Assembly: GCF_014200015.1 (NCBI RefSeq)
Contig: NZ_JACHOT010000004.1
Span: forward strand, 186,001-250,000
DNA length: 64,000 bases
Source of the DNA: Aminobacter niigataensis
Lineage (GTDB): Bacteria; Pseudomonadota; Alphaproteobacteria; Rhizobiales; Rhizobiaceae
Direction: 5' to 3'
Shown piece after piece: positions 1 through 7,006 of this stretch (the stretch's first letter is position 1; each line of letters opens with the position of its first letter). The notes under the pieces were generated by a model. That model was given only the letters and a program-made list of their open reading frames with translations. It was not told the DNA's origin and ran no database searches. The position numbers were made by a program, and so were the translations under genes.

Positions 1-102
1 CGAGGCGCCGACAAACCAGGCGATCGGCATCATGAACAGCGCGATCACCAGGACAAGGGCTGGCGCGATGAGCGCCCATTGGCTGATGCGGTAAAGGGGC
101 AT
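1..102 (-). CDS. ABC transporter permease, N-terminal fragment
   Basis: Only the first 34 codons are in the window; the gene runs off the left edge. The start ATG is at 102 and the peptide begins MPLYRISQWALIAPALVLV, a short cytoplasmic lead followed by a long hydrophobic segment, as in PotB/PotC-type permeases. It begins 4 bases after the stop of the ATPase gene and in the same direction, so it is almost certainly the next gene of one transporter operon. The permease call rests mainly on this context and on the membrane segment, because no diagnostic EAA loop is visible in the part present. Confidence 0.75.
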   Translation of the reverse strand, partial: MPLYRISQWALIAPALVLVIALFMMPIAWFVGAS

Positions 103-106
103 CTAA

Positions 107-1177
107 TTACTTTCCCAGGAAACGTGCATCAGCCGACTGCCAGGAAAGGAGCACTTTGTCCCCCGGGCTAAAAGTCGAGCTGCTTGAGCCATTTGCCGCG
201 TCGCACAGGACGGTCTGATCGTTCACGACGGAGACTTCGTAGCGAATGATGTTTCCGAGGAAGGAAACGCGCCTGACCTCACCGGGCAGCTGATTTACGT
301 TTGGCGGTGCGTCCGACGGCAAGAGGGTCACTTTTTCAGGTCGAACGAACAGTTTCCCATCGTTCAGGTCGCCGATGTCTTCAGCGGTCTGGAATTGCGA
401 TCCAGTGGCGCTTTGCAGAACACCGTTGACACGTCTCGCCTCGATCAGGTTTGCCTCACCCAGAAATTTGGCGACGAAGGAGCTTTCGGGACGCTCATAG
501 ATCGCACGCGGTGAGCCCATTTGTGCAATCACGCCCCGGTCCATGATCGCGATGCGATCCGACATGGTGAGGGCTTCTTCCTGATCGTGCGTCACGTAGA
601 CGACCGTCATACCCAACCGCCGGGAGATCTCCTTGATCTCGACCTGCATGTGGTAGCGCAAGTTCTTGTCGAGAGCTCCCAGAGGCTCATCCATAAGGAC
701 GACCGAAGGATGCCCGACGATAGCACGCGCCAATGCCACGCGCTGTTGCTGGCCGCCGGAAAGCTGCCGCGCGAAGCGGCTCTCAAACCCTGTAAGCTTG
801 ACCATCTCCAGTGCTTTTTTTACCCGTTCCGCAATCTCTGCCTTCGGCAGTTTTCGGATGGTCAATGGAAAGGCCACATTCCCGAAGACATCGAGGTGCG
901 GAAAGATCGCATAGTTCTGGAAAACCATGCCGAGCCCCCGCTCTCGCGGGGGCGCAAAGGTGGCATCGGTGCCATTGATGTGGATGCGGCCCTGGTCGGG
1001 TCGGATGAACCCCGCGAGCAGGGACAAAGTCGTTGTCTTGCCGCTGCCTGAAGGACCCAAAAGACTGAAAAACTCACCTTGCGGGATGGTCAAGGATATA
1101 TCCTTGACCACGGTTTCCCGACCGTAGCTCTTTCTGAGGGCGCTAAGTTCGACGCTTGGAGGAGTGCTCGGTTTCAT
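107..1177 (-). CDS. ABC transporter ATP-binding protein, PotA-like
   Basis: ATPase of a polyamine/iron-type import system; it powers uptake of the substrate delivered by the neighbouring binding protein. The 356-residue protein has Walker A GPSGSGKT at about 41-48, the Q-loop, signature LSGGQQQ at about 139-145, Walker B VVLMDEP at about 159-165 and a C-terminal TOBE-like regulatory region, the length and layout of PotA/FbpC proteins. I chose the ATG at 1177 because it overlaps the stop of the binding-protein gene as ATGA; upstream in-frame ATGs at 1198 and 1234 lie inside that gene. The substrate cannot be read from this subunit. Confidence 0.9.
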
Positions 1178-2250
1178 TGGAGAATCCAGTTCGACCATTC
1201 GCGATTGACCAGTTCCCGATTGTCCTCCCACCAATCAATGTTCGGCAAGAACCCGACCGCCCTCGATGCGGGGCTGCCTGGCAGCTGGGCGGCCTGTTCA
1301 GCGGTCAGGATGCCGAAGGCTTTCTGATTGGTAGGTCCGTATTGGAGGTCGGCCGAATACCTCGCCTGAACCTCAGGCTGCAACATGAAGTCGATCAGCA
1401 TCTGGGCGTTCTTGGCGTTCGGCGCGCCCTCGAATACGCCGAGCGACTGGAGTTGCTGCATGTGCTGGTTCCAGACGAAGCCGAGCGGGACACCCTGATC
1501 GATCAGCGGCTGGACGCGACCATTCCAGATCGAGCCAAGCAACACTTCCTGGTCAAGCATCATCTGGCTGGATAGTGCCCCGGTGTCCCAGAACTTGCGG
1601 ATATGAGGGCGCAGCCTGCTCATCGCTTCGAACGCTCTCTTGATGTCCAGCGGATAAAGCTGATCCATCGGCACTCCATCCGCGAGCAGAGCGAATTCCA
1701 GGTTCGGATGGCCCGTGGCCATGTCGGCGAGCATTCTCGGACCCGCGAATTTCTCGGAGTTCCAGAAGTCGGACCAGTTCTGCGGATGCTGTCCATCCGG
1801 GAAGCTGTTCGTATTGTAGGCGAGCACGCTCGCATAGACGTAGTGCCCGACATGCTTGTCCTGGCGATAATCGACCATGACGTCATCGGGCTTGGACCAT
1901 TTCCAACTTCCATAGTCGATCGGAGCCAGGACGCCTTCGCGCTGCAATGTCACGAGCGGACCGATGGCCGCGTCGATAAGGTCCAGCTCGACATTCCGAG
2001 CCCTCGCCATGGTCAGCATTTTCGCGATTGTCGCGGCGACCGGAATAACCGTGATACCGGTTAGTTCCGTGAACGGATCGTAGACTTGGCGCCGCATGAC
2101 ATCGTCATAGCGGCCGCCTGTTGTCCGGACGATCACCTGTTCCGACGACTGCGCCGTGCCGCGCAGCACGAACGGCGCAGTGAGCATCACGCCACCGCCT
2201 AAAAGAACTTTCCGACGCGACGGCAAGAAATTCGTCGTTGTGTCTGCCAT
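1174..2250 (-). CDS. ABC transporter substrate-binding protein (PotD-like, Tat signal)
   Basis: Periplasmic solute-binding protein, about 358 residues, of the family that includes spermidine/putrescine and iron-binding proteins. The N-terminus MADTTTNFLPSRRKVLLGGG carries a twin-arginine (SRRKVL) export motif followed by a hydrophobic stretch, so it is probably exported folded. The start at 2250 has a strong ribosome site (GGGAGAGG) directly upstream; an in-frame ATG at 2340 is less likely. It is the first of the transporter genes and is coupled to the ATPase by an ATGA overlap. The M24 gene lies 143 bases upstream on the same strand and may share its transcript. Confidence 0.88.
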   Translation of the reverse strand: MADTTTNFLPSRRKVLLGGGVMLTAPFVLRGTAQSSEQVIVRTTGGRYDDVMRRQVYDPFTELTGITVIPVAATIAKMLTMARARNVELDLIDAAIGPLVTLQREGVLAPIDYGSWKWSKPDDVMVDYRQDKHVGHYVYASVLAYNTNSFPDGQHPQNWSDFWNSEKFAGPRMLADMATGHPNLEFALLADGVPMDQLYPLDIKRAFEAMSRLRPHIRKFWDTGALSSQMMLDQEVLLGSIWNGRVQPLIDQGVPLGFVWNQHMQQLQSLGVFEGAPNAKNAQMLIDFMLQPEVQARYSADLQYGPTNQKAFGILTAEQAAQLPGSPASRAVGFLPNIDWWEDNRELVNREWSNWILQ

Positions 2251-2393
2251 AAACCTCTCCCATTTCCGATATTTCAGGCTGCGTGCGCTGCTTTCAAAAC
2301 CCGGCACCTCGGAAACCTCGGCCGCGCAATGCACATTCATCGATTTGGTTGGCTGGCCGCGCTATGCGGCGAGACATCAGAGTCTTCGGGCGC

Positions 2394-3533
2394 TCAGGCC
2401 TCGTTGACGATCAGCCGGCGCGGAAACTGAGTAAGCAACTCCGGTCCGTTTGAGCCGACGGCTACGGTTTCACTCATCGAAACCTGGTCGGCCGAGGCGT
2501 AGATGTGAAAGACCATGCCCTCCTCGACCACCCAGTCGGCGCCAGGGTGAAACGTTCTGGTGAAGTCGCTGGATCGGGGCGTCTGCGTCAAATAGTGCCC
2601 GAGCGTGTAACCGGTGATGTTGTCGTAGCTGTCCCTCAATCCAGATCGCACGACGCCCTCGCGGAGAATACCATCGACCTTCGATGCGAGAGCGCCCGGC
2701 CTCAAGGCGGCGATCTGCTCATCCTGAATGGCGATCAGTTTTTCTGCCGTCGCTGCGAGCTTCGCTGACGGCTCACCGACGCTAACGCAGCGCATGAGGC
2801 GCGCGCTGTACCCTGACACCCGCGGCATCAGCTCAAGGTGAATCACATCGCCGCGGGAAAGCGGTCCGTCGGTGAAGTGTCCATGGATGAAGTCTGCGCC
2901 TATTGCAGGGCAGATCAGCGTGTGCGTGGCAAGGTCGCTCCCGAGCTCGACATAGGCAGCCGTTGCGACACGCGCCGCATCCCGCTGCGAACCGCCGACA
3001 ACGCAGGCGGCGGCTGCGCGGCGCATGGCCTCGTCGGCGATCGACGAAGCACGGCGGAGCAGTTCGATCTCGGCAGGCAGTTTGATAAGACGCAGATCGT
3101 TGGCCAACTGCCCAAGATCCACGGTCCGGAGCCCGGGCAAAACGCTCTTCAATCGCTCCAGCCTATAGTAGGACATGCCATAGGAGTTGTAGTCTAGACC
3201 CATGGCGGCGCTGGAAAGTCCCCGCTCTGCCAGCAGCGACGCGAGGACCGGCATCGGGTCTTCCCAATCGCGGTAAGGGTAAACGTCGCGGATCCAAGTG
3301 CCCTGGCGGCATGGCTCGGCATCCAACGCCCGGATGAGAATAAACGGGTCGCTTTCGATCGGGACAATGACGCAACGCCACCGGTTCATCGAGTTGGCGT
3401 AGCCGCAGATCCAGGTCATGGCTTCAATTTCGTCAAACAAAGCCACATCCACCTTGGACGCCCTCATGTGCCGGCGTATTTCGGCGAGCCGTCCAGCAAA
3501 TTCTTCTGTCGAGATCTGAACAGTCTTGGTCAT
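2394..3533 (-). CDS. M24-family hydrolase, creatinase/ectoine-hydrolase-like
   Basis: About 379 residues with the creatinase N-terminal domain and the pita-bread C-terminal fold of M24 proteins. The segment GDVIHLELMPRVSGYSARL aligns with the usual metal-binding VDxGxxxxGYxxDxTR motif, but the second Asp is Arg; further on, the metal His and one Glu positions read Tyr (GYTLGHYL and MVFHIYAS), while the last Glu (SETVAV) is kept. This pattern fits the metal-free creatinase and DoeA branch better than aminopeptidase P. The start at 3533 has GGAA nine bases upstream; 3542 is an alternative. The protein probably cleaves a C-N bond in a small guanidino, cyclic amidine or amide compound (inference). 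Confidence 0.8.
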   Translation of the reverse strand: MTKTVQISTEEFAGRLAEIRRHMRASKVDVALFDEIEAMTWICGYANSMNRWRCVIVPIESDPFILIRALDAEPCRQGTWIRDVYPYRDWEDPMPVLASLLAERGLSSAAMGLDYNSYGMSYYRLERLKSVLPGLRTVDLGQLANDLRLIKLPAEIELLRRASSIADEAMRRAAAACVVGGSQRDAARVATAAYVELGSDLATHTLICPAIGADFIHGHFTDGPLSRGDVIHLELMPRVSGYSARLMRCVSVGEPSAKLAATAEKLIAIQDEQIAALRPGALASKVDGILREGVVRSGLRDSYDNITGYTLGHYLTQTPRSSDFTRTFHPGADWVVEEGMVFHIYASADQVSMSETVAVGSNGPELLTQFPRRLIVNEA

Positions 3534-3933
3534 CGAAGTCATTTCCGTTGATTCTAGTACCGGCATCGGCCCGGCGGACCGCGAACAATCAGATTGGGAG
3601 GCGCGAACGGCGCGGCACGTCTGGCGCGGACATCAGAAATCGTCCCGTAGACGGCAGAGTGCGAATAGCCTGCAACGAGGACCGCATTCAGCCTGCAGGC
3701 ACCGCAGCCCCATCCTCAAGGACAGTAGCTCCTGATCGCCAAGTAATTGCTGGGACATCGACACGGACACCTCCCCCATATCCACGTTTTGTCCAGCATG
3801 GCGCCGCCTATCATATCTGTCAAGTGACTTGATCAATGATCATGCGGTCCGATAAATAGTAATCAGCATTTCTTCTTTTGCAAACGCTCTCGCCGGCAAT
3901 TATGGTGACAACGGCGACCCCTAAGGAGCAAGC
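3534..3933. promoter_or_regulatory. Divergent control region between the M24 gene and the XRE-cupin gene
   Basis: This 400-base gap holds no convincing gene: the short ORFs across it overlap one another and have no recognisable product. It must contain the promoters of two divergent units. The part nearest the regulator gene is AT-richer (about 3810-3905) and carries the palindrome described at 3812-3832. A good ribosome site, AAGGAG, precedes the regulator start at 3934. Confidence 0.6.
3812..3832. promoter_or_regulatory. Candidate operator 1 of the catabolic locus
   Basis: The core TCAAG-TGA-CTTGA (3820-3832) is a palindrome with 5-base arms, preceded by CATATCTG. The same arrangement, CATATTTA then TCAAG-CTA-CTTGA, occurs at 5228-5248 in the other divergent gap of this locus; 17 of 21 positions agree. 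Repetition of the same dyad in both control regions of one locus that encodes an XRE-cupin regulator suggests that this regulator binds here. The binding is inference. Confidence 0.6.
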
Positions 3934-4566
3934 ATGGCAAAGCGAGTGAGCGCGCAGTTGAACGTAGGCGATCACCAAGACGTCGATCAGCGCGACCAGC
4001 CTCCGGCCATCGGCATCCGTCTCAAGCATGCCCGACTCACCAAAGGGTTGAGCTTGCGGCAGATCGCGGACATCGCCGGCTGCTCGGAGAGCTTCGTCTC
4101 GAAGGTGGAGCACGACCGGGTCCGTCCCTCTCTGGCGACCTTGCATCGCTTGGTCAAAGCGCTCGAAATCAATATCGCAGCACTGTTCTCGGACGCGGAC
4201 CTCGATGAGAGCGGTCCGGTTTTCGTCTATCGCGCAGGACAGCGTCCTCTCATCCACATGGACCCTCTTCGAAAGGGAGAAGGGATCACGCTTGAACGCC
4301 TCATTCCCCATGCGCGCGGCATCCTGCTCCAGGCTAACGTGCATATTGTGGCGCCGAACGGGGCGAGCGCTGGCCTGATCGAGCACGAAGGGGAAGAGAT
4401 TGGCTATGTGCTAGAGGGCGAGCTGGAGTTGCAGGTGGAAGATAAATTCTATCATCTCGTCATCGGTGACAGCTTCTTTTTCAACTCCAAACTGCCGCAC
4501 GGCTATCGAAATCCGGGCAGCGTCCAAGCCTCGATCCTGTGGGTGAATACACCACCAAGCTTCTGA
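3934..4566 (+). CDS. XRE-family transcriptional regulator with C-terminal cupin domain
   Basis: A 210-residue DNA-binding protein. Residues about 28-85 form a lambda-repressor-like helix-turn-helix (RLKHARLTKGLSLRQIADIA, then GCSESFVSKVEHDRVRPS), and about 130-205 form a small cupin barrel (HEGEEIGYVLEGELELQV, then GDSFFFNSKLPHGYRNPG), the usual ligand-sensing half of such regulators. AAGGAG sits seven bases before the ATG. It is divergent from the M24/transporter genes and convergent with the HutD gene, from which it is separated by 27 bases. It is the only regulator in the locus and most likely controls it, probably through the dyads at 3812 and 5228. Confidence 0.88.
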   Translation: MAKRVSAQLNVGDHQDVDQRDQPPAIGIRLKHARLTKGLSLRQIADIAGCSESFVSKVEHDRVRPSLATLHRLVKALEINIAALFSDADLDESGPVFVYRAGQRPLIHMDPLRKGEGITLERLIPHARGILLQANVHIVAPNGASAGLIEHEGEEIGYVLEGELELQVEDKFYHLVIGDSFFFNSKLPHGYRNPGSVQASILWVNTPPSF

Positions 4567-4593
4567 AAGAATTGTATATTCTGCAACTCGGCA

Positions 4594-5163
4594 CTACAGG
4601 ACACTCTGATCTACCCCTTGAGTCGTTTGCACGAAAACCAGCCCCGCTGCCTCCCCGGCCCTGGCTTCAAGAATGCCGGGATCCACAAGCGTGTCCCCCT
4701 GACCAAGCACGTGGTCGCCGGCGATTAGCTTCCCGAAAGCGCAATAGACGGCGACGAGGTTGTGGGCCAATCGAATGCGATGACCGCCGGCGACGATGCG
4801 TGCCGACACCTCGATACGTCCGTAGTCCCGCGCCACATAAACATTGAAGGCGCGCGCGGGAGTCCGCACGCGACAACGGGTAGGCACGTCGCCGGCAAAA
4901 AAGAATGGCACAAGCGGGGTGCACCGCACAGGCACACCCGCGCCGACTGCCAGTTCAACCCCTTCGCCATCCACCAGAGTGAAGTATCGGTCACAATCGG
5001 CAAAATACGAAAAATCAGCATCCCTCGTCAGGTCCGCGATGCTGATAAGCCAGTCGATTCGTCTGTCCAGCGATTGCTTTCCCGCAACGTCCCGGGTGAT
5101 GCCATGCCCGTTGGGCCAGGGCTTGGCGACCAGATCTGCACCCCGCACCATTGTCTGAACCAT
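4594..5163 (-). CDS. HutD/Ves-family cupin protein
   Basis: A 189-residue protein resembling HutD, a cupin-fold protein found in histidine-utilisation loci and thought to limit or sense urocanate-related metabolites. Visible family features are the N-terminal WPNGHGITRDVA stretch and the RIDWLISIADLTRDADFS stretch. The start at 5163 has AGGA about eight bases upstream. No other hut gene is present here, so this copy serves a different pathway, most likely that of the adjacent hydrolases. It is divergent from the carbamoylase-like gene, with the candidate operator between them. Confidence 0.82.
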   Translation of the reverse strand: MVQTMVRGADLVAKPWPNGHGITRDVAGKQSLDRRIDWLISIADLTRDADFSYFADCDRYFTLVDGEGVELAVGAGVPVRCTPLVPFFFAGDVPTRCRVRTPARAFNVYVARDYGRIEVSARIVAGGHRIRLAHNLVAVYCAFGKLIAGDHVLGQGDTLVDPGILEARAGEAAGLVFVQTTQGVDQSVL

Positions 5164-5227
5164 TGTTCGATCCTTTCCGCAGGCCGGGTCTCTTCGATGG
5201 TATCCGGCACTCCAGTCATTCTTATGG

Positions 5228-5248
5228 CATATTTATCAAGCTACTTGA
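5228..5248. promoter_or_regulatory. Candidate operator 2 of the catabolic locus
   Basis: TCAAG-CTA-CTTGA at 5236-5248, preceded by CATATTTA, in the 142-base gap between the divergent HutD-like and hydrolase genes. It matches the site at 3812-3832 at 17 of 21 positions. A further half site TCAAG follows at 5267-5271 inside an AT-rich run (5249-5270) that could contain the promoter of the hydrolase gene. Confidence 0.6.
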
Positions 5249-5305
5249 CTCAAGAGAAATATATATTCAAGTAGCGCATTCGAAAATTGCCGAAGTGAGC
5301 CCCCT

Positions 5306-6565
5306 ATGGATCGCAGCCCCCTATCGAGCCTCCCGCTTACGATCGATGGCGAAGCATTGTGGCGGCGCCTGCAGGAGCTCGCCACATTCGGCGCCCGTTC
5401 AGATGGGGGGGTCGATCGCCCAGCCCTAAGTGCGACCGAAAGAGCCGCGCGCCGCCGGCTGATCGAATGGGCGGATGCACTGGGCGCGACCAGCCATATC
5501 GACCCTGCAGGAAACATGTTCTTTCGTCGGGCTGGTATCGACGACCTCGATCCGGTTCTTTTCGGGAGCCACATCGACAGCCAGCCCAATGGTGGCCGCT
5601 ACGACGGCGCGTATGGCGTGGTGGCCGGCTTTGCCTTGCTGGAAGCGGCGGCGCGAGCACAATTGGTCCATGCGCGCCCAATTGAAGTCGTCGTCTGGAA
5701 CAACGAGGAAGGCTCCCGCTACTCGCCGGGCGCCATGGGATCGGCACTTTTCGCGGGCCAGATCGGACTGGACGCTCTCCGCGACGTGCAAGACGCTGAC
5801 GGGCTGCGTTTTGCCGACGAACTTGAAGCGACCATTGCCGATGCAAAGGCCGCCGGTGCACGTGAACGAAAGCTGGGGTTTCCGGTTCACGCATTCATCG
5901 AGCCTCATATCGAGCAAGGGCCCATTTTGGAAAGAGAAGGCCTGCCCGTCGGTATCGTCGACGGAATACAAGGGCTGCGATGGTATCGCGTCACGGTGCA
6001 CGGCTCATCGGCCCACGCAGGCACCACCCCGCGGGCCGCGCGACGAGATGCCTTCGTTGGAGCCGCGGAACTGGCAGCGGCGTTGCGGGCGCCCACCATC
6101 GATTCCGAAGATGCCGTTCGTTTCACAATCGGCCGCTTCCGAGTCTTCCCGGGCAGCCCGAATACAATCGCCGAACGGGCGGAATTCAGCGTTGACCTGC
6201 GTCACAACGACGACGCGCTGCTCACCTCCCTCGATGAGGTTTTCACGGAACTGGCGCAAAGGAGCTGGTCCGGCTGTTCCGTCGAAATGGAAAGGGTGAT
6301 GACACTGAGCCCGGTCTCCTTCGACGAGCGGGTGATCGGCCTTCTCGAGCAAGGCGCAAGAACCAGCGGACGTTCCTATCGCCGCATGACTTCGGGTGCC
6401 TTCCACGACGCCACGCACATGGCATCACTTTGCCCGACTGCAATGGTATTTATTCCCTGTGCCGCCGGAATTAGCCACAATCCCCTCGAACGGATCGAAC
6501 CTCATGATGCGCTGGCCGGCGCCGAGGTGGCGATTGCCGCTATTGTGGCTCTGGCACAAAGCTGA
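5306..6565 (+). CDS. Zn-dependent amidohydrolase, hydantoinase/carbamoylase family (M20)
   Basis: A 419-residue member of the allantoate amidohydrolase / N-carbamoyl-L-amino acid hydrolase family. The two-metal site is complete: GSHIDSQPNGGRYDG, WNNEEGSRY, FIEPHIEQGP and the late SGAFHDATHMA and AGISHNPLE motifs are all present, with the dimerisation domain between. The enzyme probably hydrolyses an N-carbamoyl or ureido group, releasing ammonia and CO2 and an amino acid; the exact substrate is unknown. Its ribosome site is weak. It is transcribed away from the HutD gene and ends the accessory locus. Confidence 0.88.
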   Translation: MDRSPLSSLPLTIDGEALWRRLQELATFGARSDGGVDRPALSATERAARRRLIEWADALGATSHIDPAGNMFFRRAGIDDLDPVLFGSHIDSQPNGGRYDGAYGVVAGFALLEAAARAQLVHARPIEVVVWNNEEGSRYSPGAMGSALFAGQIGLDALRDVQDADGLRFADELEATIADAKAAGARERKLGFPVHAFIEPHIEQGPILEREGLPVGIVDGIQGLRWYRVTVHGSSAHAGTTPRAARRDAFVGAAELAAALRAPTIDSEDAVRFTIGRFRVFPGSPNTIAERAEFSVDLRHNDDALLTSLDEVFTELAQRSWSGCSVEMERVMTLSPVSFDERVIGLLEQGARTSGRSYRRMTSGAFHDATHMASLCPTAMVFIPCAAGISHNPLERIEPHDALAGAEVAIAAIVALAQS

Positions 6566-7006
6566 TCCAGGCAACTTGCTGCCACGACGCAGATAGATGG
6601 GTGGCATCATTGCTTAGAGCTGCTGCTCGCGAAGCAAACTTCGCCACTTCCGCATCATCTCGATCTCGGTGCTGCACATGCGCATCGTGCGGCATGAGAT
6701 CCTCGACATACACCAGTCGCCAGTTGAGCCACAGCGCCGAAGCCGCATCGGCAAAATGGCTGCGCTCGACAAAACCTCGGCCACCAAGATCGCTCCCGCA
6801 ACAAAACCACAACCTGCCTGCCTACCCGGCAAGGTGGGACTAATCCCCGTCATTTAAACGATTTAGATAAATTCTAAAATATTTAAATCGATTAATGATT
6901 TGAAATCGCTTGGCTTTTCTGTTTCTGGCTGCCTCGGTCCCTCGGGGACAGCGGCGTCCGGCCCGAAGACCGGACATTGGCGTCAAATCGAACGAGGGTT
7001 CACCGA
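6566..7006. promoter_or_regulatory. Gene-poor gap with the pckA promoter region
   Basis: The 441 bases hold only short overlapping ORFs on both strands with no family I recognise. From 6851 to 6908 the base composition changes to very AT-rich, with repeated ATTTAAA and GATTT elements and a dyad CGATTTA (6859-6865) / TAAATCG (6884-6890). This is the likely promoter and control region of pckA, whose expression in rhizobia depends on growth on gluconeogenic substrates. The leader from there to the pckA start is about 100 bases. Confidence 0.5.

Follow-up and report, generated by a model that had tools for sequence, protein, structure and literature searches.

We propose that a PuuR-like XRE-cupin transcription regulator (3934-4566, + strand), acting as a dimer and likely as a repressor, binds two matching palindromes in the window (the whole 64-kb stretch of DNA that was analysed) and controls the surrounding genes for an ABC importer, an M24 hydrolase, a HutD-family cupin and an M20 hydrolase, which would deal with an imported compound. 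Considering the sequence comparisons given below, we regard this reading as likely. In the proposed mechanism, the regulator would act locally, most likely by repression, on TCAAG-N3-CTTGA in the gap that holds its own promoter and that is common to the M24/ABC-importer unit, and on a second operator in the gap between the HutD and M20 genes. The imported compound or one of its breakdown products would bind the cupin domain and release the regulator, upon which importer, M24, HutD and M20 would be made and the compound degraded, with the M20 step removing a carbamoyl (ureido) group. The preliminary description of this DNA had named the same components (ABC importer, M24, HutD, carbamoylase-type M20 and XRE-cupin), and at the family level all of these names were confirmed.

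Two palindromes and their recurrence beside the regulator

The core TCAAG-N3-CTTGA is present in the window in two exact copies, at 3820-3832 and 5236-5248, and there is no third. Dyad 1 (3812-3832) lies between the M24 gene (ORF start at 3566, - strand) and the regulator gene (3934, +), and dyad 2 (5228-5248) between the HutD gene (5163, -) and the M20 gene (5306, +). Both gaps thus separate divergent genes, the dyads themselves are assigned to no strand, and the two 21-mers are identical at 17 of 21 positions. In all of this the preliminary description was right. The half site that it added at 5267 carries no weight, as the window contains 161 copies of TCAAG and CTTGA taken together, and it is also off the 20-bp tandem spacing of the relatives discussed below. 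We predict that dyad 1 is an XRE-cupin operator that serves autoregulation and possibly also the M24/importer unit, and that dyad 2 is an XRE-cupin operator for the M20 gene, the HutD gene or both.

On a scoring matrix made from 125 sites of regulator relatives, with the window sites left out, dyad 1 scored 25.2 and dyad 2 20.2, and nothing else in the window scored more than 6.1. Cores with at most one mismatch number five in the window against 1.22 expected, a count that was reached by 2 of 100 shuffles. The motif could have been frequent genome-wide, a check that the preliminary description had proposed itself, but the full form is rare: the exact core is listed at 11 places in the whole 5.28-Mb genome, and the nine listed outside the window score 16.8 or less. 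A reading of the dyads as terminators was rejected, as two terminator-like sites occur in 3540-5320 and neither is at a dyad. Elsewhere in the genome (L008 1501-1550; G000 C5:346437-346486), two dyads with the same core lie 37 bp apart at the start of an ORF that, judged by eye, looks MarR-like; there is no XRE match near this pair, which is possibly an operator of the MarR-like protein itself.

Relatives of the regulator were collected by searching an alignment of six regulator proteins against a collection in which each of 84,980 bacterial and archaeal species is represented by a single genome. The search gave 279 confirmed stretches, of which the best 80 were analysed, so that the counts speak for close relatives only; the dyad was already known in four of the six aligned sequences before the search, and the query itself was protein only. 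Within -300 to +350 of the regulator ORF, the exact dyad was recovered in 76 of these best 80 loci, whereas none of 15 control patterns with other spacings or other half sites was present in more than 2 of the 80. In the 1,434,283 bases covered, 125 of the 131 exact dyads fall within this range of a regulator gene. The dyad is located upstream of the regulator in 22 loci, downstream in 71 and on both sides in 17, and none of the 125 is found inside the regulator ORF (60-bp margins). Pairs of sites with an exact separation of 20 bp occur 32 times in the 80 loci. When the regulators were collapsed at 70% identity, 15 clusters remained, 11 of which include the dyad. Plasmid loci show the same association, with the exact dyad in four of the five that were examined (L070, L071, L072, L074 and L075; the regulator was matched in 122 plasmid records in total). 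For distant XRE proteins encoded in the same genome (25-32% identity), the exact dyad was found within 1.5 kb of none of the 11, two of which matched over the HTH part only. Given that the same palindrome adjoins most close relatives of the regulator, the two dyads are very probably its sites, and the XRE-cupin protein is very probably the binder of both.

The regulator's own branch gives a more mixed picture. The exact dyad is absent from four of the 80 loci (L076, which is the closest relative, L119, L126 and L142), and all four belong to the nine-row group of the window regulator in the regulator tree (98/96 support; midpoint root, several long branches), in which four of the other eight rows have the exact dyad. 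The earlier claim that the regulator binds both dyads is strongly supported by the comparison as a whole and less clearly by this group. A degenerate dyad goes beyond shuffles in three of the four loci (0, 2 and 0 of 300), and that of L119 is no better than shuffles (34 of 300). Two further relatives were without the site as well: L201 (52% identity) lacks the dyad, whether exact or with one mismatch, throughout 3,564 bases, and L072, from a Klebsiella plasmid (49%), lacks the exact dyad over 20.6 kb, the nearest one-mismatch site lying 359 bases past the end of the regulator gene. Because the dyad is missing from loci of the own group, from L201 and from L072, we conclude from the loci compared that the operator is a trait of a subset of the regulator family and is drifting near the branch of the window, which keeps two clean copies. 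The neighbours of the L072 regulator are an M20 gene and a urea-carboxylase-associated gene, and the regulator of L201 adjoins, as judged by eye, a likely TRAP-type binding protein.

The M24/importer unit and the extent of control

The M24 hydrolase (2394-3566, - strand) was assigned on basis of its family profile, a solved-structure match and an alignment of metal ligands. It has a creatinase N-terminal domain, and its best solved-structure match is DoeA (88 bits), followed by prolidase (78) and creatinase (53). Residues D209, D220 and H280 of 1pv9 align to E245, R256 and N316, which means that three of what we take to be the five prolidase metal ligands are replaced; the protein thus appears to be of the metal-free type, as had been proposed. 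The loss of metal ligands is DoeA-like, but unlike DoeA/EutD the protein falls well short of the two ectoine-hydrolase cutoffs (125.8 of 575 and 110.7 of 613). On the same strand follow the genes for a PotD-like solute-binding protein (1174-2340, -; this is the longest ORF and the true start may be an ATG near 2250) and a PotA-like ABC ATPase (107-1234, -; TIGR01187, 367.3 against a cutoff of 355.6), and the two permease genes that come after the ATPase lie outside the window (L002 8457-10102). In a phylum sample of 398 genomes, the HutD/Ves-family cupin (4594-5163, -; PF05962, 93.3 against a cutoff of 25) was matched at 1e-22 in no genome other than this one. At 1e-15 it was matched in 8 of 297 genomes of a family sample, this one included, the matches in the others being only 31-40% identical, and nowhere on plasmids.

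Homologues of the M24 protein turned up in 17 of the 297 genomes searched for the order (1e-40) and in 5 of 385 for the class (1e-80), with this genome included in both counts, in none of the nine other genomes of the genus, and in 69 plasmid records, all with less than 60% identity (four of the 25 listed were examined). The closest relative found (59%; L195 9394-11527 for this gene and the next) is directly followed by an agmatinase-family gene (above cutoff, 194.7 of 174.3), and its genome has no regulator match at 1e-30.

It is possible, though in our opinion doubtful, that the regulator controls only itself and the HutD and M20 genes, and that the M24/importer unit is separately controlled and merely adjoins dyad 1. 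This would fit the location of dyad 1, around 100 bases from the XRE start and around 250 from the M24 ORF start, as well as the M24-importer units of two genomes (G097 and G138) that stand without a regulator nearby and the lack of a regulator match at 1e-30 in 11 of the 12 M24-bearing genomes searched (12 of 20 found). The motif, which the preliminary description expected near orthologous loci, is indeed present at relatives of the regulator, but it is missing near M24 homologues without the regulator (exact dyad in 0 of 18 regions; 0 of 4). On the other hand, the divergent gap with dyad 1 is where the M24 promoter is to be expected, and in many relatives the dyad is found in the promoter gap of importer genes that adjoin the regulator, which argues for an operator that would serve the M24/importer unit together with the regulator gene.

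Promoter geometry and the identity of the binding protein

The regulator combines an N-terminal XRE HTH with a C-terminal cupin (Pfam HTH_31/HTH_3 and Cupin_2), and its nearest NCBIfam model is PuuR (NF007408), for which it is far under the curated cutoff (97 of 211 bits). The combination of HTH and cupin is shared with PuuR and with the XRE-cupin repressors PsdR, PauR, ErfA and DbuR of Pseudomonas, and so is the predicted local control of adjacent metabolic genes from a palindrome near the promoter (PMC7901475, PMC12724383). The palindrome reported for DbuR is another sequence than TCAAG-N3-CTTGA (PMC12724383).

At 42 of the 103 downstream sites of the relatives, the dyad continues with its right arm into TTGACA. 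When all 125 sites are taken together, -10 boxes that match at five or six of the six positions peak at a spacer of 17 bp (10 sites), and every other spacer of 8-30 is represented by 0-2 sites. The dyad of the relatives would then often form part of a -35 box, which is the geometry expected of a local repressor. Since no sigma-70-like promoter pair was found in window 3540-5320, occlusion of the -35 box at the window's own sites is something that we infer. It seems improbable that the XRE-cupin protein is an activator, and not a repressor, at some of these promoters. The search of 3540-5320 that located no promoter leaves room for it, but the dyad of the relatives overlaps a -35-like box and the characterised XRE-cupin proteins are local repressors with palindromic sites (PMC7901475; PMC12724383).

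It is very unlikely that the dyads are bound by some other factor, either a LysR-type protein of the island described below or a host regulator. Two LysR genes in the island and the dyad pair at the MarR-like gene may be read in that direction, but the dyad tracks the XRE-cupin gene in 76 of 80 loci of differing gene contents. That the two palindromes are mere chance matches is scarcely credible: cores with at most one mismatch are common in the genome (317 places per strand against 224 for the pattern read backwards), but in 1000 dinucleotide shuffles of each gap the matrix score of that gap's site was never reached, and the same dyad is kept beside relatives of the regulator.

The inserted island and its possible substrate

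The genes discussed here belong to an inserted island, of which the window contains positions 1-6810 (no strand). The gap between a chvI-like and a pckA-like gene, names that represent a reading of the sequences, measures 16,181 bases in this genome against 339-343 in all nine other genomes of the genus (one of them only 81% complete), and comparison with the nearest genome revealed an insertion of 15,837 bases at a single point (L002 974-16810), which ends at window position 6810. The island furthermore encodes a RidA-like protein (62.5 of 106.25), two LysR-type regulators, an agmatinase-like protein (L002 2866-3879) that stays just below the TIGR01230 cutoff (167.9 of 174.3), and a second importer, of the amino-acid type. 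For the ATPase and one permease of the latter, the highest scores come from ectoine-importer models and stay below cutoff (308.3 of 345.4; 165.3 of 196.95); for the other permease and the binding protein they come from cystine models. After the two operators, the next-best matrix score in L002 is 5.7. Considering that the operators are the only strong matrix sites in L002, we predict this control for the M24-XRE-HutD-M20 half of the island only. The HutD-family cupin and an arginase-fold protein of the superfamily that contains HutG are reminiscent of hut loci, but a scan of 16 island proteins found no hutH, hutU or hutI product, and the best model for the arginase-fold protein is agmatinase.

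The M20 hydrolase (5306-6565, + strand) belongs to the hydantoinase/carbamoylase family (TIGR01879, 370.9 against a cutoff of 204). The ligand residues of the N-carbamoyl-beta-alanine amidohydrolase of Rhizobium radiobacter, reported as Glu131, Gln196, Arg291 and His385 (PMC10952681), align to E134, Q204, R299 and H391, so that all four are kept, which supports the earlier assignment of the protein as a probable carbamoyl-acid hydrolase. In family score and in these four residues it is like the N-carbamoyl-beta-alanine/amino acid amidohydrolases (PDB 8c46, 3n5f), from which it differs in being under the cutoff of every model listed other than TIGR01879. These include the allantoate amidohydrolase models (PRK09290 series; 416.4 of 452 and 396.8 of 399, the latter for NF006771, the nearest miss) and AllC (243.5 of 597.75).

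A carbamoylase-type M20 gene is also present in 68 of the 80 regulator loci, and some of the 12 loci without such a match end at a contig edge. The commonest neighbourhood comprises a ribose-type importer, a phosphotriesterase-like protein, an amidotransferase-like protein and M20 (together in 59 of 80 loci), extended with PfkB and BtpA/SgcQ in 48 of the 80. The same operon type was also seen under the same predicted operator in the plasmid loci L070, L074 and L075. The partners in the window's group are different ones. According to Pfam, L142 contains domains of hydantoinase A and B (in NCBIfam, acetophenone carboxylase/caprolactamase subunits, below cutoff). In L076, a deacetylase with weak similarity to PuuE (80.7 of 424.6) is accompanied by a protein of the cytosine deaminase family (586.7 against a cutoff of 403). 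NCS1-type permeases that stay under the NCBIfam cutoff are encoded in L125 and L126, and L077 combines an amino-acid importer with an arginase-fold protein. On basis of the partners in the window's group, we lean towards ureido and cyclic ureide chemistry. None of the 80 loci contains a HutD match, and a complete copy of the gene set, sought in the genome, plasmid and regulator-locus searches, was not found.

M24 matches were obtained in three of the 80 regulator loci (L110, L113 and L114; 87-99 bits), in each upstream of the regulator, and these are of a type different from the window protein, that of the ectoine hydrolases. Those of L113 and L114 are true ectoine hydrolases (813 and 815 against 613) that occur with an amino-acid-type importer around 2 kb before the regulator (L113 93-6886, L114 91-6885), in L113 preceded by a true EutC; L110 contains two M24 relatives below the ectoine-hydrolase cutoff. 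L113 and L114 are neighbouring tips of the regulator tree. Their ectoine neighbourhood may be functional or may be chance.

With respect to the substrate, a ureido or guanidino compound is plausible, although we would stop short of calling it probable. Some weight is given to an ectoine-like cyclic amidine, a rather unlikely candidate, because of the M24 genes of L110, L113 and L114 and the scores of the second importer. Ectoine itself was set aside, considering that the M24 protein is far below the DoeA cutoffs; the second-importer scores keep it a candidate. Among the 16 island proteins scanned, no ectoine-catabolic enzyme was present at cutoff. Creatine was also considered, as creatinase is an M24 protein, but it gives the weaker match mentioned above (53 bits).

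In the open-licence literature, the dyad sequence was met in no bacterial paper as judged by title and start of abstract, and the gene combination had no match, with none of the papers listed including HutD, although a subscription paper could exist. The statement in the preliminary description that no described pathway has exactly this gene set agrees with this. The regulator is of a known kind, the XRE-cupin local regulators, and comes with a well-defined predicted operator and an unusual gene set. Tentatively, the clade could represent an undescribed and horizontally spread regulon family, found in the Hyphomicrobiales and in part of the other Pseudomonadota, whose operator hardly varies and marks catabolic operons for ureido acids, cyclic ureides and related amidines. 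In this genome the regulon would have been connected to a new pathway that lies on a mobile island, with a metal-free M24 enzyme taking the place of the usual hydantoinase, to open the ring or cleave an amide, before the M20 step. If so, the 13-base dyad would mark uncharacterised catabolic operons of plant- and soil-associated bacteria, the ligand of the regulator would reveal the substrates of those operons, and a DoeA-like metal-free M24 enzyme would be linked to carbamoyl-acid chemistry. The island, of which the predicted operators would control a part, may degrade a nitrogen-rich compound.

The ends of the insertion deserve separate mention. They consist of an 11-bp inverted repeat (L002 974-984 and 16798-16808, the right end being window 6798-6808), which resembles the ends of IS6-family elements. 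By eye, no transposase was recognised in translations of the insertion ends, and the left 14-mer of the insertion has a single occurrence in the genome with at most one mismatch.
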